Of a stretch of DNA of 28,877 nt, positions 1-28,877 are shown in pieces. The translations under genes were made by a program, and so were the position numbers. The stretch lies in IMG/VR virus record IMGVR_UViG_3300030390_001271, positions 1 through 28,877 of that record; one strand, 5' to 3'. Position 1 is the stretch's first letter. Every line of letters starts with the position of its first letter. The notes under the pieces are model-generated. The model was given only the letters and a program-made list of their open reading frames with translations, was not told the origin of the DNA and made no database searches. Origin of the DNA: a virus.

Positions 1-79
1 TAATACCATTCATTCAAATAATCTAATGCTTTATTATAATCTATATCAAATTCTTTTAGATAAAAGTCTTTATATGTAG
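1..79. repeat. Left copy of 79-bp terminal overlap
   Basis: These 79 bases are identical to the last 79 bases of the window (28799-28877), and the polymerase-like reading frame runs straight through the join. The simplest reading is a circular assembly of 28,798 bp whose ends overlap by one assembly k-mer. A genuine short direct terminal repeat is possible but less likely, because the repeat lies inside a gene. Confidence 0.9.
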
Positions 80-482
80 TTAAAGCTTTTTTAGCTTCAT
101 CATTTCTTTTATTCTTGTTTTTTATTATCTTCTTTTTAATAGTTGTCTTTTGTATTGTAACCTCTTTTAATAAAGATATGTAGTTTTCATTGAATCTATA
201 ACCTAAACTCTTACCAGCTTCTTTAGAATAGAATCCATCACACTCTATAATGTTATTATCTTTAAGGAAATCAATAGGTGTTTTATATTCAGTAATAATA
301 TCTCTGAAATAATAAGAAGGTATATCAATATATTTGTTAGAATAATCAGTATCTTCTTTTTTAAATATAGATGAACGGAATACCATATCACAAACAACAT
401 ATAATTGTTCAATGTTTTTAAAATCTAATTCTTGTAATTTGTCATATACCAGTGTAGGTATATATCTCTTTAAGTTTTTCAT
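1..482 (-). CDS. Palm-domain polymerase-like protein, N-terminal part (continues across junction)
   Basis: N-terminal 160 codons of the 409-aa protein whose remainder is at 28051-28798. It starts with ATG at 482-480, beginning MKNLKRYIPTLVYDKL. Residues about 60-105 have a pattern (FLKDNNIIECDGFYSKE, then SLGYRFNENY) that resembles the winged-helix-like region of some replication proteins; this is a weak impression. Residues 111-131 are very basic, with many Lys and some Arg. The catalytic motifs are all in the other part. The ATG overlaps the second copy of a 12-bp direct repeat (AAAGAGAGATAT on the coding strand), which may serve as a purine-rich ribosome site. The gene has a long leader (483-730) with hairpins. 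It is partial here only because the circular genome was cut within it. Confidence 0.8.
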   Translation of the reverse strand, partial: MKNLKRYIPTLVYDKLQELDFKNIEQLYVVCDMVFRSSIFKKEDTDYSNKYIDIPSYYFRDIITEYKTPIDFLKDNNIIECDGFYSKEAGKSLGYRFNENYISLLKEVTIQKTTIKKKIIKNKNKRNDEAKKALTTYKDFYLKEFDIDYNKALDYLNEWY

Positions 483-2845: not shown

Positions 2846-3523
2846 TTAATAATTTATTTCTTTAAATCTACCATTTAAGGATTCAAATGTTGTTTGCATA
2901 TCTCTAGGTAACATATCAATACCGAAAGCCCACATCTCGAATATAGCTAGTAATCTACGTGTATTGTTCTTATGACTTGTGCTTGAAAAAATAGAGTTTA
3001 TTCTATATTCAAAAGCTTGAACAACATCATATCTAAAAGTTTCGAATAAATCTACAACATATCTTATATCTACTTCTGATATACCTTTACTTCTCCAATC
3101 TTCTGTTATCTTATTAATATAATTAACGTGCATTTTAGTTTGTTCTTTTAAGATATACCTTTTAAACTCATCAGGACTCATCTTTTCTATATCAACTTCT
3201 AATATTTGTTCAAATGAATTATAACATACTTCAATTTTATGTTTAGTAAAGTCTTTACACATCTTACTTTTAGTAACATCATAAACACCGTGAGTGTAAA
3301 ACTTCATTAAAGACACTTCTGTTCTAACTCTTACACAAGTATTAAATAAATCGTGGTGTTTTAAATCTTCTATCTTTAATTTATTCTTTAAACTGAATAA
3401 TCTATTAATCCAAGAAGGTATTTCTTTTCTAAATATAAACATAAATGTTAATATGATTAATACAAATGCTGATACTGAACTACCATCTAAATTTTCTGCT
3501 AGTGTTTTTAAAACTCCTTCCAT
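2846..3523 (-). CDS. Membrane-anchored hypothetical protein, 225 aa
   Basis: Not recognised by function. A single hydrophobic segment lies near the N-terminus (about residues 17-32, AFVLIILTFMFIF), followed by basic residues and a soluble, helical, charged domain of about 180 aa. This points to an N-terminal membrane anchor with the C-terminal domain in the cytoplasm. It is the last gene of the structural block and directly follows the connector gene. The end of the late region often holds lysis genes, so a holin-like or membrane-disrupting role is possible, but no peptidoglycan hydrolase motif is visible. A superinfection or assembly-related membrane protein is equally compatible. Confidence 0.75.
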   Translation of the reverse strand: MEGVLKTLAENLDGSSVSAFVLIILTFMFIFRKEIPSWINRLFSLKNKLKIEDLKHHDLFNTCVRVRTEVSLMKFYTHGVYDVTKSKMCKDFTKHKIEVCYNSFEQILEVDIEKMSPDEFKRYILKEQTKMHVNYINKITEDWRSKGISEVDIRYVVDLFETFRYDVVQAFEYRINSIFSSTSHKNNTRRLLAIFEMWAFGIDMLPRDMQTTFESLNGRFKEINY

Positions 3524-13293: not shown

Positions 13294-13352
13294 ATCATTA
13301 TATATAATTTAAACTTTTCTGTTTATATATTCTTTTTTTTTCGGTAGTTAAA

Positions 13353-13458
13353 GTGTTTTAAAACCGAAATATATATACTCTATATTCTATATACTCTTCT
13401 TATGTAGCAAGTTTTGATTTAAAGTCAATAGAACCAGTTACTTACAGAGGTCATTTTT
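13353..13458 (-). promoter_or_regulatory. Class L element, copy 2 (106 bp; before fibre/tape/head block)
   Basis: Lies between the stop of the 1279-aa baseplate gene and the 59-aa gene. It is nearly identical to copy 1 from CTCTGTAAGTAACTGG through to the ACATAAGAAGAG block, and again at TTTCGGTTTTAAAACAC. TTGACT, 17 bases, TACATA forms a good sigma-70-like pair. The middle of the 48-bp core differs between copies but has the same length. Downstream, AAAAAAAGAATATATAAAC recurs in copy 3. Confidence 0.65.
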
Positions 13459-13469
13459 GTGTATTTTTA

Positions 13470-16400
13470 TTACCAAGTTAAGTTTAATGGTGTTCTACTC
13501 CAAGCAGTTGGTGTTCTATAATACATATATTGTGTATCAAAGCTTACTTGTCCTACTTCACCATTAGTATCTGTTGAACTTGTAGGTATATAATTATCTT
13601 TAATGATGAATTTAGGTACATAAACAGCGTCATCTTGTGTTCCTATAATACCATTACCACCTAATATAACAGACCTAGTACCACTTAAATCATTATTAGA
13701 ACCACCAACAATAGTAGATAATCCACTACCACCTTCTATAACATTAGTATTACCACCAACAATTACAGAATTATTATCATTAACATTATTATTAACACCA
13801 CTAACTATAGCTGAATTACTACGTGTTGTTGTAGGTGCTCCAGCAGGTGCTTCTATATTATTAAAAGCTCCACCACCAATAAAGTTATTAGTACCAGTAA
13901 TACTATTAGACTGGCCACCATCTAAAATTGAACCTTCACTAGGACTATTAATAGTATTAGATGCTCCAGCTATAATACCAGAGAACATACCATCATTAGT
14001 ATTAGACACACCTGTTGTTATAGAATAACTATTAGAAGACGTGTTATCCTGACCACCTAATATAACAGAAAGAGAACCAGTAACTTGATTATTTATACCA
14101 CCTACTATTGAACTTCTCGCAGCAATTATTTCATTACTTTCACCACCAACAATTACAGAATAGTCATCATTAACATTGTTATTACCACCAGCAATTATAC
14201 CTGAATTTTCTCTTGTTGTGGTAGGTGACCCAGCAGGTGCTTGTATATTATTATTAAAACCACCACCAATAAAGTTATTTACACCAGTTATAGTATTAGT
14301 CTGACCACCAGATAAAACTGAAGCGTCACTAAGAGGATTAATAGTGTTAGCTGCTCCACCTAATATACCAGAGAACATACCATCATTAGTATTCTGCACA
14401 CCTGTTGTTATAGAATATATATTAGAAGCTGTGTTTGGTGCTGTTGAATTAACTTGAACTACACTTTCTAAACCTTCACCTTGTTCCCATAAACCACTTA
14501 AAGGATTATCTTGTGTAAATGTTGTACCATTAATATAACTTGTATTAGATTCATTAATTTCTTGATTATCACCAATAATTGTTACATTTTCTACACCACC
14601 AGCTACAATATTATTATCACCTTGAACATTAATTGAATTAGAATTACTACCGATGAAATTATCATCACCATTAACCACAGCTGTTGTGTCAGTACCAACA
14701 TAATTTCTTGCACCTAACATAGCAACATTAGTAGAACTAGTATTATTAGTAACATTACTTCTATATGGACCATTTCTAACAGTTCCTATGCCAGTTTGTA
14801 ATTGGTCAGTTGAGGTAAATATTGTATAAGATGGTATACTAGCCACTTCTTCTATTTCAGGTTCGAAAGTAGAACCTTCTTTTATATACAATAACTCTAC
14901 TGACGTTAAACCATCTTCTAATGGCTTATAATCGATTATCTTATTAATTATATAATAACTATCTTTAACAAAAATACGACTATTTAAATTGTCTTTAATA
15001 AAGTTTATATCTGTTTCATTTAAATAAAATTTAGACTTTACTAATTTACCAGTGGATATTTGATTAATATAATTTTTCCAATATCTATTGAATAAGTTAT
15101 TATCTGTTACGTTATTAAGTAAAGCTCCATAGTATTCATAACTAACTTCACCATAGTGAATATCTATTGTTGGGTCATAAGGATTATTCCAATGACCAGC
15201 ATAAGGATATGTAGAATAAGGTATTGATGGTAATGTTCCCCATTTAATCTCTAAAGCTTTCGAAGAGCCATCTTTATCTCTCACAGGAACTAAACCACCC
15301 CAATAACACAAAACAGGATTTCTTTTACTTTGTTGAGAAGACACAGATGGTATTACAACATAATTTTTATATATACTTCTCTCTATCAATGGAGCACTTG
15401 AGAAGAAAGATTCTATCTTCTGTGTACCTTGAACAAAATCATTTTCAAAACTAAGAAGTTTCTGACCATAGATATCACCAGTGCTACCAAAATAAGTTTC
15501 ATTTCTTTTATCACCATTACCATCAGTAGCTGAATTATCTTCTTTATATGTAAATAATATTTCTTTATTTTGTAGTTCAGTTAAAAATGATATTCTATCC
15601 TCAGATGAATAATCTTTCTTTTGAGTCCAGTCTAATACAGTTACATTATCACGATAAAACTGGTCTCTAGTTTCTAAGACTAATGTTTTATTTTTTGTTG
15701 GATGTTTTGTAACATAGATATTATATCGTCTTATAATATCACTTAAAATATCTTTTTGTTTGAATTGTTTAGGTAGATAAGCATTTACATTTACCTCATC
15801 ATTATCATTAATATTATCATCTTTAACAGTTGTATTTTTGAAATAACTTGGTATACCACTACTCATAGTTTTATAAACATTCCATTGTATAAAAGCACTA
15901 ACATTAGTAAAGTTAGATGGTGATGAACCAAAATTATTATCTACCTGAAAGTTTAAAACATTTGTGTTAGTACCAGCTGGATTATTTACAGATGGTGTGG
16001 TTATAATATTAAATCTCATTTTGATTTCCTCTCCTGTAACTAACTCTAAATTTTGAAATTCAAAATTAAGGTCATTAGTTATAGAAACTGTTGCATCTGG
16101 TATACTAGGGTCAGCCGTGGTTATATCAGGTGTTAAACCTAACTCTTGAATATCACTACCAATAATACCTTGTAAATTTGATATTATTTCAACTTTAATA
16201 TATATATAAGTTCTTAGTAATCCATATTGATTTCTCATTATACCTTTACCAGTTAGAGTAATTTCGTTTTTAAATTCTGTTTGAAAATCAAATTTACCTG
16301 TATTAGGACTAGTCCATAAACCAAATGGACCTGCTATACCTGAAGCAGGATTATTAAAGGTATAAGCACCTGTGTTATCATAAAAATCTGGTGGTGTTAT

Positions 16401-17309
16401 ATCATCAAAGTTAGCGTTCTTTTTTTGTAAACGAGCTAAACTATCTAAACTTCTACCATTTCCAGCTGAAAAAACATTAACTTCACCAAATGGTATTGGT
16501 AATAAATCACTAGTCAAACCAGCTTTAAATTCTCTAGCACTAGCTTCACTATTTGTTATCAAAGGTGAATCACCATCCCACATAATAAGTTCTTTATGAT
16601 AACTACCAAAGTCTGATGCTGATGGGTCATCATTCTCATTTGTCATAAAAGAACCTTCTAATGTATAACCTGTTCCTGGTATTAAATCACCAGTTGTATC
16701 ATAATCACCAGCTTGTTTAGCTATTTCTAATAATAATCCTTTATGATAAACACAAGGTTTAAAATCTTCTGTAACATAACCTCTAGTATTCTTATCTAAT
16801 AAAGGATATTGATATAAATCAGTATATGTATGATTATACCAAGCGTTTTCAATTGAAGTTTGTGTTAATAAATGATTATAATCACTTAAATCTAAATCAG
16901 TTAATACTTTATCACCTAATGTTTGTATAAATTCTACTGAATCATCAAATACTATAACCTCATAGGATATTAAATTACCTTGTAAATCAGCATTATTCAT
17001 TTTATTAACCTTTGTTAATTGAATATAACCTTCTAAAACAGGTGATGAGTCAACAACTATTCTAGCATCTATCTTTTTGTTTGGGTCATATTGAGTAAAA
17101 TCACTATTAACATCGAATAAATTACCAAAAGATTTATTATTTTTTTTAGTACCTGGTAAAGTTATAGTTTTACTATAGTTACTATTCTTCTTATCTATAT
17201 TTCTTATATCATCAATAGAATATTGTAAAGCTATTGATATACTATCAGTATTTAAATCTAAACTTATCTGTTCGGTACCTTGACCAATGATTACTTCTAC
17301 TTTCTTCAT
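13470..17309 (-). CDS. Baseplate / tail-tip protein fused to beta-repeat fibre domain, 1279 aa
   Basis: Residues 1 to about 850 match the large baseplate protein of Bacteroidota siphoviruses, with the distinctive SIDDIRNIDKKNSNYSKTI (31-49) and LPGTKKNNKSF near the start and a long beta-rich body. From about residue 866 to 1225 there are repeats of the type I-x-G-G-x-N-N-x-I (IVGGESNEI, SILDGGQSN, FIGGG), similar to the head repeats of trimeric adhesins. A block of about 131 residues is duplicated in tandem. The last 55 residues form a cap with TQDDAVYVPKFIIKDN and YMYYRTPTAWSRTPLNL. It is probably the central tail tip carrying its own fibre. No peptidase motif is obvious. Class L copy 2 follows its stop. 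Confidence 0.75.
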   Translation of the reverse strand: MKKVEVIIGQGTEQISLDLNTDSISIALQYSIDDIRNIDKKNSNYSKTITLPGTKKNNKSFGNLFDVNSDFTQYDPNKKIDARIVVDSSPVLEGYIQLTKVNKMNNADLQGNLISYEVIVFDDSVEFIQTLGDKVLTDLDLSDYNHLLTQTSIENAWYNHTYTDLYQYPLLDKNTRGYVTEDFKPCVYHKGLLLEIAKQAGDYDTTGDLIPGTGYTLEGSFMTNENDDPSASDFGSYHKELIMWDGDSPLITNSEASAREFKAGLTSDLLPIPFGEVNVFSAGNGRSLDSLARLQKKNANFDDITPPDFYDNTGAYTFNNPASGIAGPFGLWTSPNTGKFDFQTEFKNEITLTGKGIMRNQYGLLRTYIYIKVEIISNLQGIIGSDIQELGLTPDITTADPSIPDATVSITNDLNFEFQNLELVTGEEIKMRFNIITTPSVNNPAGTNTNVLNFQVDNNFGSSPSNFTNVSAFIQWNVYKTMSSGIPSYFKNTTVKDDNINDNDEVNVNAYLPKQFKQKDILSDIIRRYNIYVTKHPTKNKTLVLETRDQFYRDNVTVLDWTQKKDYSSEDRISFLTELQNKEILFTYKEDNSATDGNGDKRNETYFGSTGDIYGQKLLSFENDFVQGTQKIESFFSSAPLIERSIYKNYVVIPSVSSQQSKRNPVLCYWGGLVPVRDKDGSSKALEIKWGTLPSIPYSTYPYAGHWNNPYDPTIDIHYGEVSYEYYGALLNNVTDNNLFNRYWKNYINQISTGKLVKSKFYLNETDINFIKDNLNSRIFVKDSYYIINKIIDYKPLEDGLTSVELLYIKEGSTFEPEIEEVASIPSYTIFTSTDQLQTGIGTVRNGPYRSNVTNNTSSTNVAMLGARNYVGTDTTAVVNGDDNFIGSNSNSINVQGDNNIVAGGVENVTIIGDNQEINESNTSYINGTTFTQDNPLSGLWEQGEGLESVVQVNSTAPNTASNIYSITTGVQNTNDGMFSGILGGAANTINPLSDASVLSGGQTNTITGVNNFIGGGFNNNIQAPAGSPTTTRENSGIIAGGNNNVNDDYSVIVGGESNEIIAARSSIVGGINNQVTGSLSVILGGQDNTSSNSYSITTGVSNTNDGMFSGIIAGASNTINSPSEGSILDGGQSNSITGTNNFIGGGAFNNIEAPAGAPTTTRSNSAIVSGVNNNVNDNNSVIVGGNTNVIEGGSGLSTIVGGSNNDLSGTRSVILGGNGIIGTQDDAVYVPKFIIKDNYIPTSSTDTNGEVGQVSFDTQYMYYRTPTAWSRTPLNLTW
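13650..14431. repeat. Tandem duplication in baseplate-fibre gene, about 393-bp period
   Basis: Two units of about 130 codons. Each begins with SNxYSITTGVxNTNDGMFSG and contains TTTR and VNDxxSVIVGG blocks. ACACCTGTTGTTATAGAATA occurs at about 14399 and again at about 14006. Identity is high at the protein level and moderate in DNA, so this duplication is older than the 64-bp one in the side fibre gene. Confidence 0.75.
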
Positions 17310-19271: not shown

Positions 19272-22200
19272 TTAAGCTATATTTGTTATTATTCCATTAC
19301 TAACAGTAACTGTATCACCATCACCGTTTGTAAAAGTACCAGTAAAACCTGATGTATTTTGTGTAGCTACAACTTCACATACTTCTAAGAAAGTACCTTC
19401 TGATAATATCTGAACTCCTGATTGAGCATTAATACCACCTACTGACATTATTATTGTAACTATATCATTTTCATTTAAGTCTAATATTAAGTCTAGTTGT
19501 GATGATGATAATTTAGCACTACCTGCGTTTCTAGCATAATGTTCAACACTTTGATAATCTTCACCATTACCATCTACTACTATAACACCATTTACTGCTA
19601 TACTCATAATTGGATTAGCTCTTGGTGTTGTGTTACTATTAATACTTGTAGCACAATTAACTCTATATCTACCATCTTGATTAACTTGAACACCATTACT
19701 AACGACTGTGAATTTAGATGAATCACTATTTTCTGATTCCACTGTTATAGGTATAGTTTGGTCACCTAATGAAACATAAGTAGCATTTGTAACACCAATA
19801 GTTTTAGAACCTCTACAATAATCAGCTGTAAAAGTAGGTATATTAGTTATAGCTGTATCAACATAATCTTTATTAACTAAAGTTAAAGCATCAAATCCAG
19901 CAATAACTGTAGGGTCTGTAGAATATTTAGCTAAACCAGTTTGAACTTCTAAGTTCTGAACATAAGCCATATCATCTTGAGTAGCTGTTATATTCTGACC
20001 ACCTAAGATAACAGAACGTTCAGCAGTGCTTGATATAGCATTAGTATTACCACCAACGATTGTATTATCTGAATTAGTATCAACAGTAATCGTATTATTT
20101 TGTCCACCTAAAATATTATTATGTATTCCATTACTAGCAAAACCAACTCTACTTATTGAACTATCTTTAGAGTTTAAAATCACCGAATATTTATGGTCGA
20201 TGGTATTTCCATCACCACCTATGATTCCACTATTTGCTGGTCCTGGAGCACTACCACCACCAGTTAAACTATTGTTACCGCCAGATATCAGAAAAGAATA
20301 AGAAGAAAAATCAACTTCATTATTAGTACCACCAACAATAACATTATTTGCTGATGGATTTGTTATACTATTATTAACACCACCAAAAACTTCGTTATTA
20401 TTTGCTGGTCCTGATATATCTATATTAACACCACCAAAAAGACTATTAAATTGAGCCGGTGTTGTTATTGTAGCATTTACAGTTCCAAAAATACTATTAT
20501 TTAAACCACTACTACTTATGACATTATTTTCACCACCGACTATAGTAGAATTTTGTGCTGTAGTTATCTCAGAGTCGTTAGATATAATTATTGAACTCAC
20601 ACCACCATTAGTGTTACCACCACCACCTAATATTACTGATTGATTTCCAGTTAATGTATTAGCTGAAGATGAGTTAGGATAATTAATTGAATCAGTTCCT
20701 GTTCCAGGTTCCCAAAGAGTAGGTATAATACTACTTATAGCTGCATCTAAATCACCTTTAGTTATTAAACTAAGTGAAGTATAACCTGCTGAATAATCAG
20801 CTAAGTATTCTATACCTCTTGTTGTTGTTCTAAAATCTTGAAAATATGAATCAGGACCAATAGAAAAGAAACCATAACTATTACTATTAAGAGTAACTTT
20901 ATCTGGCCATATTGTTATAGAACCACCAAAAGGATTACCAGGTGTTTCATAGTTCATTTGAAAGTTATTACTACCTAAGAACATTTGACCTTCATTACCA
21001 TTACTATTAGTATGTTTATATTCAATAAAGTCACCATATATTTGAAAATAACCTTCTTCACTAACAGCTGTATCTTCTCTATACATTTTTAGTTTAGCGT
21101 CATCAATTAAATGATAAGACTCTTTACCACTTGTGTTTGTTTTTTTAAGTTCTAAACTACTTTTACTTGTTACAAAAGAACTCTCATCTACATTATCACC
21201 TACTACTTGTGAGTTTAAATTAGAGTCAAATGTTAAAGTGTTTAATTCATTATTACCTAAATCATCATCAAAAGTAATTAAACCATCATATCTATCTATT
21301 TCAAAGTTACCACTATCTACAGTTAAGTATTCATATAACTCAAAATCAGAATTGTATGTTGTATCAATATCTAATTTAAAACCAGCTGGATTTAAAGAAT
21401 ATGAATTAGTTGTAGGAGATGGTGATGAGAACTCTACATATCTACCACCTGGATTATCTGTTACTTCTAATTTATAACCTGAATCTGAATATGTTTGTAA
21501 TCCTTCAATAGAATTTATATTATGACTACTTAATTTACTAGCTAATGTTCCCATAGTGTAAACTTGATAACCACCACTAACAGTTGTTGTTTTATTTAAA
21601 GTACCTCCTAATTCAACATCATTACCTGTTGATATATTTAAACCATTATCAGCTGTAACTGAACCACCAGCTAATGAAGATAAGTCAGTTGTTATTGTAA
21701 CACCATCATTTCTTGTTAATTCTAAATCTGTGCCGTTTAATATACTTGATATAACGAAAGTATCTGGTAAAGATGATGTATCTATTGATATTGTTTTTAC
21801 AGTACCATCTGTTGTCACTGTTATAGGTGATGTACCTATAACATCTGTAACTAATACAGGACATAATACATTTACATCAGGACAATTAATATCAGGAAAC
21901 TCAAAACCACTTATATCGGTAGCAGGAATACCACAAAATGATGTTAATACAGGTGTCATTAAAGATATCTCACATAACCAACCACTAACCTCTTCATCAA
22001 ACTCTTCAGTAAAGGCTTCAAATGATATATCATCTACTATATTCAATTGACTATTAACATAATAAGGATGACCTCTAAACTCTACTATGATATCTTTTAA
22101 TATATCTATTGTATCACTTAATACATCATTCTCATTTGATTCATCTTTATGAACTAAATCAAATACTCTTACTTCAAAATTGATTTCGAAAGTTTTATAG

Positions 22201-22379
22201 CCAGTATCAGTAGATGGCATATTAGCTGTAACAGGATTAATCCATAATACAGGATGCATATAAGCTTTATCAGCTCCTATTTCCCAAGAATCACCTATAC
22301 CAAATCCATTAATTTGATAGTGTCTTGTAGCTATGTCTTTAAATACACTTACTAACTGATTTATTGTTTGTATCTTCAT
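19272..22379 (-). CDS. Tail-terminator-like domain fused to beta-repeat fibre and C1q-like tip, 1035 aa
   Basis: Residues 1 to about 150 match a small tail-completion protein common in Bacteroidota phages: FKDIATRHYQINGFGIGDSW, then HPVLWINPV, FEVRVFDLVHKDESN, DVLSDTIDILKDI and TEEFDEEVSGWLCEI. That protein usually stands alone. Here the frame continues without a break into a fibre. Residues about 200-555 are beta-rich and Asn/Ser/Thr-rich. About 555-805 carry I-x-G-G-x-N-N-x-I repeats like those of the 1279-aa protein. About 848-1005 look like a C1q/TNF-type jelly roll (DGRYRVNCATSINSN, FLEVCEV). The end has TGTFTNGDGDTVTVSNG. It may be a tail or neck appendage; the fusion is unusual. Confidence 0.7.
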   Translation of the reverse strand: MKIQTINQLVSVFKDIATRHYQINGFGIGDSWEIGADKAYMHPVLWINPVTANMPSTDTGYKTFEINFEVRVFDLVHKDESNENDVLSDTIDILKDIIVEFRGHPYYVNSQLNIVDDISFEAFTEEFDEEVSGWLCEISLMTPVLTSFCGIPATDISGFEFPDINCPDVNVLCPVLVTDVIGTSPITVTTDGTVKTISIDTSSLPDTFVISSILNGTDLELTRNDGVTITTDLSSLAGGSVTADNGLNISTGNDVELGGTLNKTTTVSGGYQVYTMGTLASKLSSHNINSIEGLQTYSDSGYKLEVTDNPGGRYVEFSSPSPTTNSYSLNPAGFKLDIDTTYNSDFELYEYLTVDSGNFEIDRYDGLITFDDDLGNNELNTLTFDSNLNSQVVGDNVDESSFVTSKSSLELKKTNTSGKESYHLIDDAKLKMYREDTAVSEEGYFQIYGDFIEYKHTNSNGNEGQMFLGSNNFQMNYETPGNPFGGSITIWPDKVTLNSNSYGFFSIGPDSYFQDFRTTTRGIEYLADYSAGYTSLSLITKGDLDAAISSIIPTLWEPGTGTDSINYPNSSSANTLTGNQSVILGGGGNTNGGVSSIIISNDSEITTAQNSTIVGGENNVISSSGLNNSIFGTVNATITTPAQFNSLFGGVNIDISGPANNNEVFGGVNNSITNPSANNVIVGGTNNEVDFSSYSFLISGGNNSLTGGGSAPGPANSGIIGGDGNTIDHKYSVILNSKDSSISRVGFASNGIHNNILGGQNNTITVDTNSDNTIVGGNTNAISSTAERSVILGGQNITATQDDMAYVQNLEVQTGLAKYSTDPTVIAGFDALTLVNKDYVDTAITNIPTFTADYCRGSKTIGVTNATYVSLGDQTIPITVESENSDSSKFTVVSNGVQVNQDGRYRVNCATSINSNTTPRANPIMSIAVNGVIVVDGNGEDYQSVEHYARNAGSAKLSSSQLDLILDLNENDIVTIIMSVGGINAQSGVQILSEGTFLEVCEVVATQNTSGFTGTFTNGDGDTVTVSNGIITNIA

Positions 22380-23539: not shown

Positions 23540-23600
23540 ATGATAATATATATTGTATTAATTATTGTTTATATATATATTCTTTTTTTAGTGGTCTATT

Positions 23601-23706
23601 GTGTTTTAAAACCGAAATATATATATTCTACACTATTTAGTTCTCTCTTATGTAGCAAGTTTTTGTTTAAACATAAGTATATCAATAGTTTATAGAGGTC
23701 ATTTTA
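23601..23706 (-). promoter_or_regulatory. Class L element, copy 3 (106 bp; before tail block)
   Basis: Starts within the stop codon of the large terminase gene and ends about 60 bases before the tail-chaperone-like gene. Outer and core blocks are conserved (CCTCT, AACTTGCTACATAAGAG, ATATATATTTCGGTTTTAAAACAC) at exactly the same spacing as in the other copies. The stretch between CCTCT and AACTTGC is diverged and has lost the TTGACT box, yet keeps a TTTAAA-centred dyad (TGTTTAAACA). Confidence 0.6.
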
Positions 23707-26130: not shown

Positions 26131-26378
26131 AATTCAATATCTGTTTTTATTAAATACTTATCTAATAAGTAAAATAACATACTAATGAAACCAGAGAAGT
26201 ATATATCTTTAGTTAGTATTAAAGTTACCCAGAACGAGCAACACATCATACAACTTAATATCTTCTTTGGTATCAATATTATTGTCTTAGGTCTTTTTAA
26301 AACTTGATTAAATTCTTCTATAAAATCGTTATAGTGTGTGAGTAACCAAGTTATACCTATTATCTTTATTATAATCAT
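26127..26378 (-). CDS. Small membrane protein, DUF1360-like, 83 aa
   Basis: Two or three hydrophobic stretches (MIIIKIIGITWLL; FWVTLILTKDIYFSGFISMLF) and the motif ILSCMMCCSFWVTLI (about 40-54), which recalls the L-x-C-x2-C-x-x-FW motif of DUF1360-type proteins common in phages. The function of that group is not known; a membrane role during infection or lysis is possible. It is coupled to both neighbours by 4-bp ATGA overlaps, so it belongs to the same operon as the sigma factor and the terminase genes. Confidence 0.7.
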   Translation of the reverse strand: MIIIKIIGITWLLTHYNDFIEEFNQVLKRPKTIILIPKKILSCMMCCSFWVTLILTKDIYFSGFISMLFYLLDKYLIKTDIEL

Positions 26379-26989
26379 ATCGTATTAAAATATATAATTT
26401 TATCGTTGATGTTTTTAATATCGTCTTTAAACACCTTAATAATCTTATCTTTGGTTTTTTGTATATTGTTAAAAATAGAGGTTACAGGTATATCTAAAAT
26501 TGAACCTACGTCTCTATAAGTGTTGTCTTGATTAAAATATAAATCAAATATACCTTTATCATAAAACGACCTTGGATTAGATTTTAATTCTGAATCAAAG
26601 TATTTATTTATCTTAACCATTAATTCAGTGTAATCTTTTTCTATCTCTTCTAATAGAATAAATTTCTCTTCTTTGTCAATACTACCTATTTCATATTTAA
26701 CTTCATCATAATCAACACCAATAGGTTTTCTATACGTATAGTAATATCTACTATTAACAGATTTTAAATTGTTCTTAATAATGATATAAACATATCTCAT
26801 CATTTCATTATTCTTTTCTGTTGTTCTTTCTAATATCTGATTTAGTTTAACTTCATCTTTATTAGACATTATAATGAATAGGTCTTGGTAAAAGTCTTCA
26901 GCGTCTCTTCTATTAGGTACCATATTGTAAATAAACTTATTCATCAATTCTTCTTTATTATTTATTAACCAATTATAAATATTGTTCAT
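26375..26989 (-). CDS. Sigma-70-family (ECF-like) transcription factor, 204 aa
   Basis: Two-domain sigma factor layout. Region 2-like residues about 24-40 (PNRRDAEDFYQDLFIIM) correspond to the D-A-E-D-x-x-Q-D segment that binds the core enzyme and the -10 element. Region 4-like residues about 152-180 (NQDNTYRDVGSILDIPVTSI, then FNNIQKTKDKI) form the helix-turn-helix for the -35 element. A longer linker lies between them. Length is near that of ECF sigma factors. It should direct host RNA polymerase to phage promoters. The class L elements, upstream of late blocks, are the obvious candidate targets, and its own operon begins near class E copy 3. Anti-sigma activity is a less likely alternative. 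Confidence 0.75.
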   Translation of the reverse strand: MNNIYNWLINNKEELMNKFIYNMVPNRRDAEDFYQDLFIIMSNKDEVKLNQILERTTEKNNEMMRYVYIIIKNNLKSVNSRYYYTYRKPIGVDYDEVKYEIGSIDKEEKFILLEEIEKDYTELMVKINKYFDSELKSNPRSFYDKGIFDLYFNQDNTYRDVGSILDIPVTSIFNNIQKTKDKIIKVFKDDIKNINDKIIYFNTI

Positions 26990-26992
26990 ATT

Positions 26993-27454
26993 TTATATTA
27001 TTTTTTTACCATCTTGTATTTTAAAATGAACTAACTTCTTATCTACATAATTATTATTACCATTCGATGCTGTGTGTTTAGGACACCTCTTAATAGAAGT
27101 CGTGGTTTCTGTTCTTGTTAAATCAAAGAAATACATACCATTTGTAAACTGAACTAAAAAACCAGCTCTTATTTCCATATCAACCTTTTTGATTTTATTG
27201 GCTTCTTTAATTTCTTCATTTATCTTATCTATTTTCATTTGTTCTAATATCGTATCAGGATATTGAGTGTCTTTAACACTTCTTGTTTTAACTTCAGTGA
27301 AATAGATATAATCTTCTTTATAAGTAAAAACAAAATCATATGAACTAAATGATTCATTAAATATCTTTCTTACTTTTATGTTATTACTATTTACTGCTAA
27401 TTCAAATGTCTTAATTGTTTCTGTTTCTTTGTTTATATGTTCTTTAAAATTCAT
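26993..27454 (-). CDS. PD-(D/E)XK nuclease-like protein, 153 aa
   Basis: Residues 38-57 show the motif: Asp40 in SSYDFVF, then 13 residues, then EVK (Glu54, Lys56) in YFTEVKTR, with Gln72 (LEQMK) and a following helix, as in small restriction-like or resolvase-like nucleases. The family often occurs in phage early regions and may act on branched DNA, in host DNA breakdown or in recombination. The C-terminal part (ETTTSIKRCPKHTASNGN) is a conserved-looking extension. It stands 3 bp before the sigma factor gene. The substrate cannot be told from the sequence. Confidence 0.7.
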   Translation of the reverse strand: MNFKEHINKETETIKTFELAVNSNNIKVRKIFNESFSSYDFVFTYKEDYIYFTEVKTRSVKDTQYPDTILEQMKIDKINEEIKEANKIKKVDMEIRAGFLVQFTNGMYFFDLTRTETTTSIKRCPKHTASNGNNNYVDKKLVHFKIQDGKKII

Positions 27455-27717: not shown

Positions 27718-27735
27718 AATAGTTTTCTTTTTCTT

Positions 27736-27766
27736 TATATATTAAATAAAAAAAACCATTTTTTGT
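27736..27766 (-). promoter_or_regulatory. Class E element, copy 3
   Basis: Same 31-bp length as the other two. On the coding strand ACAAAAAATGGT, then about 9 T-rich bases, then TTAATATATA. One base differs in the first block (TGG for CGG) and the middle is different. It lies just after the stop of the 86-aa gene and before the 51-aa gene. Confidence 0.5.
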
Positions 27767-28050: not shown

Positions 28051-28877
28051 TTACATAGACACCTTTTCTATTGATAATGAAGGTTGACTATCATACTTAT
28101 CTTCAAAGTTGTTTAGAATACTTTGTTTAGTGTCATATAAGTCTTTCTTATCAATAATAAAACTATCGTGTATAGTATAATATGATATACCTTTAGTATC
28201 TAATTCTCTAGCTATAATATCTAAACATATTTGACTTTCTACTTTCTGCATTTCAATAGCAAATTGATTATGTTGTCTTTTCTTCTTTGATTCAATATGT
28301 TCTAATATAGATGGAAAGATATCTTTGAATATGTTCTTTTGTTTACAATAAGATGTGTTCTTAGAATAGAATATACAAAACATTAAGTTCTTTATTTCTT
28401 TTCTTGTAATCTCTTTACCTGTTCTTGTATAAACAGACCTACCAAAGTTCTCATAGAACTGACCCATTGATGTCCAGTCTTTGTATTTCTGAACTTCTTC
28501 TTTATCTTTTACATCATCTAAGAGAAGACTTAACATATAAGGTTGACTATTTACTATATCAATAGAATAAAGTTCTTTATCTGTCTTAATAAACTGTTTG
28601 TATTCTGATTTAAGTGATGTTAGATTAGTATCTATTCTACCATTCGTTTTATTCTTCTTAAAAAACAAGTCACCATCTTTAATAGCGTTTAATGAAATGA
28701 ATATAGAGTTATATTTATTAACAACTTTAACATATTGTTTCATAAACTCAGTTGTTTTATTATTTTTAATAGTGTTATTTAATCTTTCTATAGATATATA
28801 ATACCATTCATTCAAATAATCTAATGCTTTATTATAATCTATATCAAATTCTTTTAGATAAAAGTCTTTATATGTAG
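28051..28877 (-). CDS. Palm-domain polymerase-like protein (Pol A / T7 RNAP superfamily), C-terminal part
   Basis: C-terminal part of the 409-aa protein that begins at 482. Numbering in the full protein: motif A is SIDIVNSQPYML (Asp241), motif B is RKEIKNLMFCIFYS (Arg293, Lys297), and motif C is YYTIHDSFII (His371-Asp372). The order and spacing match the palm/fingers of family A DNA polymerases and T7-like RNA polymerases. The 'HDSF' form of motif C recalls T7 RNA polymerase. The segment GRIDTNLTSLKSEYKQFI upstream of motif A is also typical of this group. At 409 aa it is far smaller than Pol I or T7 RNAP, and no exonuclease domain is visible. It is the only candidate replication enzyme in the genome, so a role as replicative polymerase, primer-making enzyme or phage RNA polymerase is inferred. 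The apparent start near 28815 is a TTG inside the gene. Stop is at 28051. Confidence 0.75.
   Translation of the reverse strand, partial: TYKDFYLKEFDIDYNKALDYLNEWYYISIERLNNTIKNNKTTEFMKQYVKVVNKYNSIFISLNAIKDGDLFFKKNKTNGRIDTNLTSLKSEYKQFIKTDKELYSIDIVNSQPYMLSLLLDDVKDKEEVQKYKDWTSMGQFYENFGRSVYTRTGKEITRKEIKNLMFCIFYSKNTSYCKQKNIFKDIFPSILEHIESKKKRQHNQFAIEMQKVESQICLDIIARELDTKGISYYTIHDSFIIDKKDLYDTKQSILNNFEDKYDSQPSLSIEKVSM
28799..28877. repeat. Right copy of 79-bp terminal overlap
   Basis: Exact copy of bases 1-79. Joining the copies gives one continuous 409-codon reading frame on the minus strand, from 482 down to 1 and on from 28798 to 28051. This supports circular closure rather than a random duplication. 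Confidence 0.9.

Follow-up and report, generated by a model that had tools for sequence, protein, structure and literature searches.

The TV-Pol family was described by Iyer, Abhiman and Aravind in 2008, with a predicted role as primase-polymerase, and a TV-Pol element is present in phage Ma-LMM01 (PMC2579912). The divPolA2 proteins of barbaviruses and other tailed phages have been proposed to act as repair polymerases or RNA polymerases, and swapping of polymerases has been reported in tailed phages (PMC11348598). CCPol of SCCmec is an A-family enzyme that makes DNA primers de novo together with MP, and it performs only primer extension when MP is absent (PMC7581432). In Pol I, E710 and F762 are the residues that exclude ribonucleotides (PMC7581432). 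Here, we describe a compact polymerase from a small marine virus of bacteria, which belongs to a family common to small Bacteroidota phages, Bacteroidota integrative elements, and jumbo phages.

Polymerase gene and circular genome

The window, by which we mean the whole stretch of DNA analysed, corresponds to a 28,877-base virus record, both ends of which carry an exact 79-nt direct repeat (positions 1-79 are identical to 28799-28877). Because this repeat sits within a coding frame, the most plausible reading of the window is a circular phage genome, 28,798 bases long, whose ends overlap through assembly. When the ends were joined in silico, the 28,798-nt circle contained a single uninterrupted frame of 409 codons on the minus strand, running from 482 to 1 and then from 28798 to 28051. 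A contiguous 411-aa homologue, which is 78% identical over the full length, is encoded on another contig (L001:876-2108). Because this homologue spans the gene without a break, we consider the circular join, and with it the 409-aa protein that the earlier note had pieced together across the record ends, to be real. Motifs A, B, and C, which the earlier note had read in this protein, were found in place, with D241 encoded at 28558-28560 and D372 at 28165-28167 (Table 1). A chance ORF is ruled out by the 115 homologues described below. A 42-nt intergenic repeat occurs at 720-761, 2134-2175, and 27725-27766, and one of the copies lies upstream of the polymerase gene.

Table 1. Positions of the polymerase, its motifs, and associated genes (window coordinates unless a contig is named)
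Feature	Position	Strand	Evidence
Polymerase, N-terminal part (start codon at 482; residues 1-160 plus two bases of codon 161)	1..482	-	Frame across the join; covered by L001 at 78% overall
Predicted N-terminal domain, residues 1-110, winged-helix order of elements	153..482	-	Secondary structure of the confident L001 model
Polymerase, C-terminal part (residues 161-409 and stop): part of thumb, R215 hairpin, palm, fingers	28051..28798	-	Frame across the join; L001 homologue; model with family A matches
R215, invariant Arg of the hairpin preceding motif A	28636..28638	-	115/115
Motif A, IDIVNSQPYML: catalytic D241, steric-gate position Q246	28531..28563	-	Both residues 115/115
Motif B, RKEIKNLMFCIFYS (R293, K297, F301, Y305; RxxxKxxxFxxxY)	28363..28404	-	K297 115/115; R/K at 293 114/115; F/Y at 305 114/115
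Motif C, TIHDSFII: catalytic D372	28153..28176	-	D372 115/115; H371 113/115
Sigma-factor-like protein, retained close to the polymerase gene in near relatives	26375..26989	-	Match to PHROGs sigma factor (E 5e-4); L001 and L008 encode homologues
PDDEXK-like nuclease, neighbour conserved on the downstream side of the polymerase	26993..27454	-	Pfam PDDEXK_14 above cut-off; in most TerL-selected relatives
Overlapping polymerase pair of jumbo phages	L002:7968-10414, L016:9995-12444, L018:8768-11217, L021:9968-12438		

Family members and conserved residues

Searches of Pfam, PHROGs, and PDB with the single polymerase sequence gave no meaningful match. A tblastn search against phage genomes detected a match in a 595-kb phage (E = 3e-16, 98% of the protein covered) and further matches in phages of 634-735 kb, and a homologue is also found in a Hymenobacter plasmid. 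With an alignment of the phage members as the query, 80 viral loci and 80 bacterial-genome loci were obtained, the latter mostly from Bacteroidota with a few from Planctomycetota, Verrucomicrobiota, and Ignavibacteriota. The family is widespread, yet none of Pfam, PHROGs, and NCBIfam gives it a name. When 79 members were scanned against these three collections, they had no named family in common, although one PHROG of unknown function matched 12 of the 79, and Pfam DNA_pol_A gave no match above the cut-off in the window or in these members. A literature search on the NSQP motif returned nothing relevant.

Conservation was counted in 115 non-redundant long members. R215, D241, Q246, Y276, K297, E348, and D372 are invariant in all of them, which include the two aspartates that the earlier note had expected to be conserved in homologues. 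The search pattern IDIxNSQP is present in 102 of the 115 members, and the search patterns can bias only motif A and the HTN motif. The 13 members without IDIxNSQP still have D241 and Q246, and the other five invariant residues (R215, Y276, K297, E348, and D372) fall outside both patterns. A reverse transcriptase was rejected because motif C contains HD, not YxDD.

Predicted structure

The structure was predicted by AlphaFold2 from an alignment of 110 members in which L001 served as the query (the window protein, its 78% homologue, is split by the record ends). In the resulting model (pLDDT 95.2, pTM 0.91), the N-terminus has the order helix-strand-helix-helix-strand-strand, which is that of a winged helix. 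It is followed by long helices (thumb), a hairpin carrying R215, a strand carrying D241, a fingers helix carrying R293 and K297, and a hairpin carrying D372. The model thus contains the elements by which superfamily A is recognised, namely an RRM-like palm with two catalytic Asp residues, an RxxxKxxxFxxxY fingers helix, and a hairpin Arg, and motif B in the fingers aligns with motif B of Pol I and T7 gp5 in the profile comparison. We regard a polymerase fold as nearly certain.

The 50 best Foldseek matches of the L001 model in PDB are all family A DNA polymerases, which include the apicoplast polymerase, Bst, Klenow, Klentaq, and the Aquifex and mycobacterial Pol I enzymes (E values from 4.5e-7, TM-scores near 0.5 when scaled by query length). 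The top match among viral models is a 409-aa UniProt entry with 78% identity to L001, which is probably the window's own protein. The next is a 'Putative DNA polymerase I' of an uncultured marine phage (TM 0.74), and lower matches include a barbavirus DNA polymerase (divPolA2 group) and the Zamilon virophage replication protein.

The earlier note had proposed a palm-domain polymerase of about half the usual size, without an exonuclease and with a possible winged-helix N-terminus. The palm in the predicted structure is of the family A polymerase type, the compact superfamily A architecture agrees with the model, the PDB matches, and the invariant residues, and the exonuclease is indeed missing. 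For the N-terminus, a winged helix is indicated by the way helices and strands follow one another in the model, and we retain this assignment as putative.

Other genes of the phage and its close relatives

The polymerase is the sole recognisable replication enzyme of the genome, as the earlier reading of the letters had suggested: profile searches recognised no helicase, primase, other polymerase, or SSB elsewhere in the window. By Pfam, no PolA, Pol III alpha, DnaB, or SSB was found in the window or in nine small-contig records (L008-L014, L019, and L020); as a control, the same DnaB search was positive in 9 of 11 jumbo-phage records. Contigs L001, L008-L014, and L019 have virion or packaging genes as well as the polymerase in common with the window, which clusters in the tree with most of them and with Flavobacterium chromosomal copies. 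The sigma-like protein encoded by the phage (Table 1) could steer the host RNA polymerase to phage promoters.

The small contigs carrying the polymerase were found via the polymerase itself, which biases statements on its presence, and most of the contigs compared may be incomplete. Further contigs were chosen by terminase and portal. Two of these start with the C-terminus of another polymerase variant, which reads ALTIHDSVLV in L349 (TerL 92%, family-profile E about 1e-5) and FFITIHDSILV in L369 (TerL 85%, E about 2e-10). No polymerase gene was seen in the terminase-selected contigs L372 and L363/L364, which may be incomplete, and the polymerase-locus region of L372 encodes a protein with a sub-threshold HTH_36 match. 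These phages, whose terminases are 74-92% identical to that of the window, have a variant polymerase or none at the same locus (L349:2-154, L369:3-569, and L372:13680-14333). The replication gene is possibly swapped among close relatives, and in some of them the polymerase gene is exchanged or, where contigs are perhaps incomplete, absent, in keeping with the swapping of polymerases reported in tailed phages (PMC11348598). A polymerase in every phage of the group was rejected because two lineages show none among the terminase- and portal-selected contigs, which may again be incomplete.

Several other features of the window were observed. The 225-aa product of 2846-3523 is hydrophobic over a stretch at its N-terminus and matches the replication-initiation models Pfam DnaB_2 and phrog_4016 weakly (E about 1e-3), matches that we think are spurious. 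Because an amidase is encoded two genes away from its counterpart in L373, a lysis role appears likelier. An intergenic element of 159 nt is present in three copies (2136-2294, 13299-13457, and 23547-23705) that are 71-77% identical and located directly upstream of minus-strand genes; they look like promoter or leader regions and possibly correspond to the element classes of the earlier note. Two large virion proteins (13470-17309 and 19272-22379) contain many short repeats of the NNxIxGGxxN type, which we take to resemble the head repeats of trimeric autotransporters. A small plus-strand ORF amid minus-strand genes (2381-2755) is related to HNH-like proteins of the relatives, its C-terminal half being degenerate, and similar ORFs are found in L001 (L001:2366-2737) and L371.

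Bacterial elements, plasmids, and jumbo phages

The bacterial copies are located near tyrosine integrases (39 loci), DUF3871 proteins (13), HTH_17 excisionase-like proteins (12), and AAA_24 ATPases (12). Given these neighbours, we consider most of them to be parts of integrative elements. The copies often adjoin DNA methyltransferases and other cargo. In two Bacteroidota integrative elements (L098:5363-7613 and L106:5765-7598), the polymerase and AAA_24 ATPase genes are divergently oriented, the ATPase is followed by a DUF3871-type gene, and the three may form a functional unit. We take the AAA_24 ATPase beside the polymerase to be of the Sak4-like recombination type. Plasmids were rejected as replicons run by such a polymerase, since those of Hymenobacter and Polaromonas encode Rep proteins of their own.

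Jumbo phages with a family member (up to 735 kb) also encode PolB or Pol III alpha, DnaB, and often a Toprim protein. A family-wide role as the main replicase was rejected because these phages possess PolB or Pol III; in them and in the Hymenobacter plasmid with its own Rep, the polymerase is taken to be an addition. In one jumbo clade (L002, L016, L018, and L021), there is a 4-nt overlap between the family member and a gene for a PolA-like protein of 425-430 aa with a Pfam DNA_pol_A match (Table 1). The two are family A-type polymerases in tandem, and their translation is probably coupled; Pol III alpha is encoded separately in two of the records checked.

Possible function

We tentatively interpret the protein as a minimal superfamily A polymerase of the mobile-element type, with an intact catalytic site, no exonuclease, and TV-Pol and divPolA2 as relatives, which most likely serves as a DNA primase-polymerase that starts phage replication; we give this interpretation as a whole slightly less than an even chance. 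It is based on the fold, the conserved residues, the failure to recognise further replication genes in the small phages, and the precedent of CCPol-MP. The profile link to TV-Pol and divPolA2, which exceeds all shuffles, and the primase-polymerase role predicted for TV-Pol (PMC2579912) also speak for it, as do the DNA-type residues at the ribose-selecting positions. The winged-helix N-terminus would hold the phage DNA at the origin, the palm, with D241, D372, and two metals, would start a DNA strand without a primer and extend it with dNTPs, leaving completion of replication to the host helicase and Pol III. The odds for the priming step itself are roughly even. CCPol primes only with MP, and no SSB-like partner was recognised in the window, which argues against priming. 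A starter role is also opposed by the other replication enzymes of the jumbo phages and the Hymenobacter plasmid and by the close relatives without a visible polymerase gene, the contigs of which are perhaps incomplete. Of the functions raised in the earlier note, a minimal replicase or primer-making enzyme stays plausible.

The main rival is a primer-dependent accessory DNA polymerase that would fill gaps or copy from nicks and recombination intermediates, while the host or an unrecognised phage protein runs replication. The full replisome alongside it in jumbo phages and its position beside the presumed Sak4-like AAA_24 ATPase in Bacteroidota elements are consistent with such a role, as are the limitation of CCPol to primer extension without MP (PMC7581432) and the repair or RNA polymerase function proposed for divPolA2 (PMC11348598). 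However, the polymerase is the sole recognised replication gene in the small phages and has, in the model, its own winged-helix-like putative DNA-binding domain, and we consider the accessory role somewhat unlikely. A more far-reaching form of the primase-polymerase reading would be a distinct minimal family, marked by the DIxNSQP motif A, the winged-helix N-terminus, and the Gln gate, in which one protein of about 400 residues recognises the origin and both primes and polymerises DNA, freeing a 29-kb phage from the need for any further replication gene; in jumbo phages it would be an extra polymerase, translationally coupled to a mini PolA in one clade. We hold this extended form to be unlikely.

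The nature of the product bears on a further alternative raised in the earlier note, a miniature single-subunit RNA polymerase that would transcribe phage genes from the intergenic repeat elements. R215 presumably occupies the position of Pol I R668 and of T7 DxxGR, as placed by motif order. By motif spacing, we take Q246 to correspond to Pol I E710 and T7 RNAP G542, F301 to Pol I F762, and Y305 to Pol I Y766 and T7 RNAP Y639. The steric-gate position is Gln in all 115 members and the T7-like Gly in none, position 301 is Phe or Tyr in 97, and position 305 is Phe in 90 (78%) and Tyr in 24. In T7 RNAP, Y639F weakens NTP selection. The bulky Gln gate, the aromatic residue at the F762 position, and the frequent loss of the Y639 hydroxyl suggest DNA synthesis, as judged from the aligned sequences. 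Signs in the opposite direction are weak: motif C has IHDS, like T7 RNAP, many family members have a DxxGR-like motif, and a single member matches Pfam RNA_pol (E = 0.001). The window protein is half the size of the T7-like enzymes, its family profile matches that of T7 RNAP in motif C alone, none of these enzymes is among the 50 best structural matches, in which DNA polymerases are found instead, and the phage encodes a sigma-like protein. Transcription by this polymerase is therefore disfavoured, and we regard it as improbable. A polymerase for competition, such as defence or counter-defence by template-poor or untemplated synthesis, might account for the variants exchanged or missing at one locus and for the frequent methyltransferases and other cargo beside bacterial copies, but it is highly improbable given the complete template-using family A motif set retained across great divergence.

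If the primase-polymerase reading is correct and the protein starts and copies DNA alone, it would rank with the smallest complete DNA-starting enzymes described so far, and a 29-kb phage would replicate with one recognisable replication gene. It would also provide a function for a large unnamed family of Bacteroidota mobile elements and giant phages and test the 2008 primase prediction for TV-Pol beyond the sole biochemically studied case. Beyond the view from a single sequence, the family appears related to TV-Pol and divPolA2 and occurs also in integrative elements and in jumbo phages with another replicative polymerase.

Comparison with known polymerases

In hhalign comparisons, the family profile scored 34.8 against divPolA2, 31.3 against three TV-Pol-like proteins, 26.1 against T7 gp5, 25.4 against T7 RNAP, and 24.1 against E. 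coli Pol I, a ranking that is rough because the profile depth is unequal among the targets. Each score exceeded those of all 120 column shuffles of its own target. The TV-Pol-like comparison (0/120 shuffles as high) involves just three sequences and has a probability value of only 9%. These sequences are Ma-LMM01 gp030, picked as TV-Pol-like from its site beside transposase genes and its motifs, and two plasmid relatives found with it. Scans for relatives found none for divPolA2 and near-copies only for gp030, and those profiles are therefore shallow. On this rough scale, the nearest relatives by sequence appear to be divPolA2 and TV-Pol, the known minimal exonuclease-free superfamily A polymerases.

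The family A DNA polymerases (Pol I, apicoplast Pol, and Pol theta) share the fold and the order and spacing of the motifs with the window protein, whereas the latter is about half their size, has no exonuclease and no Pfam DNA_pol_A match, and carries another motif A. CCPol-MP (PMC7581432, PMC10061031) is likewise an exonuclease-free A-family polymerase of a mobile element and works in the way proposed here. However, CCPol is close to Pol I (E710 is kept, and it is annotated as PolA) and needs the OB-fold partner MP for priming, whereas no partner was recognised for the window polymerase. The divPolA2 proteins (PMC11348598) are similar in size (AUR84708, 430 aa), lack an exonuclease, have an N-terminal domain unlike those of other polymerases, and accompany another polymerase in larger phages. 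They gave the top profile score among the targets compared and a structural match, with the palm aligned over all motifs. In contrast, their motif A is DFKAFE rather than DIxNSQP, their motif C has FDE in place of IHDS, and the N-terminal domains show no notable match.

TV-Pol (PMC2579912) resembles the window family in its 400-600 aa, its minimal superfamily A core with the invariant Arg hairpin, the two palm Asp residues, and the RxxxK fingers, the absence of a nuclease fusion, and its virus or mobile-element context, including Bacteroidetes. The thumb coiled coil, Arg hairpin, palm, and RxxxK fingers follow one another in the same order in the L001 model, and the TV-Pol-like proteins have a motif A of the YDIENCH or YDVVKCH form, an LLQ..E helix like that of the window family, and an N-terminal block with weak similarity to it. 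On the other hand, the D5 helicase linkage of TV-Pol was not seen for the window family, motif A D+5 is His in TV-Pol and Gln here, and the N-terminus appears to be alpha/beta and winged-helix-like, whereas an all-helical N-terminal domain was predicted for TV-Pol (PMC2579912). TV-Pol has a conserved Asp in the fingers, and no fingers column has Asp in at least 60% of the 115 members, which is a possible further difference. We therefore place the family beside TV-Pol and divPolA2 on the basis of sequence, rather than as a proven member of either; the Bacteroidetes TV-Pols of PMC2579912 may belong to the same family as the window polymerase.
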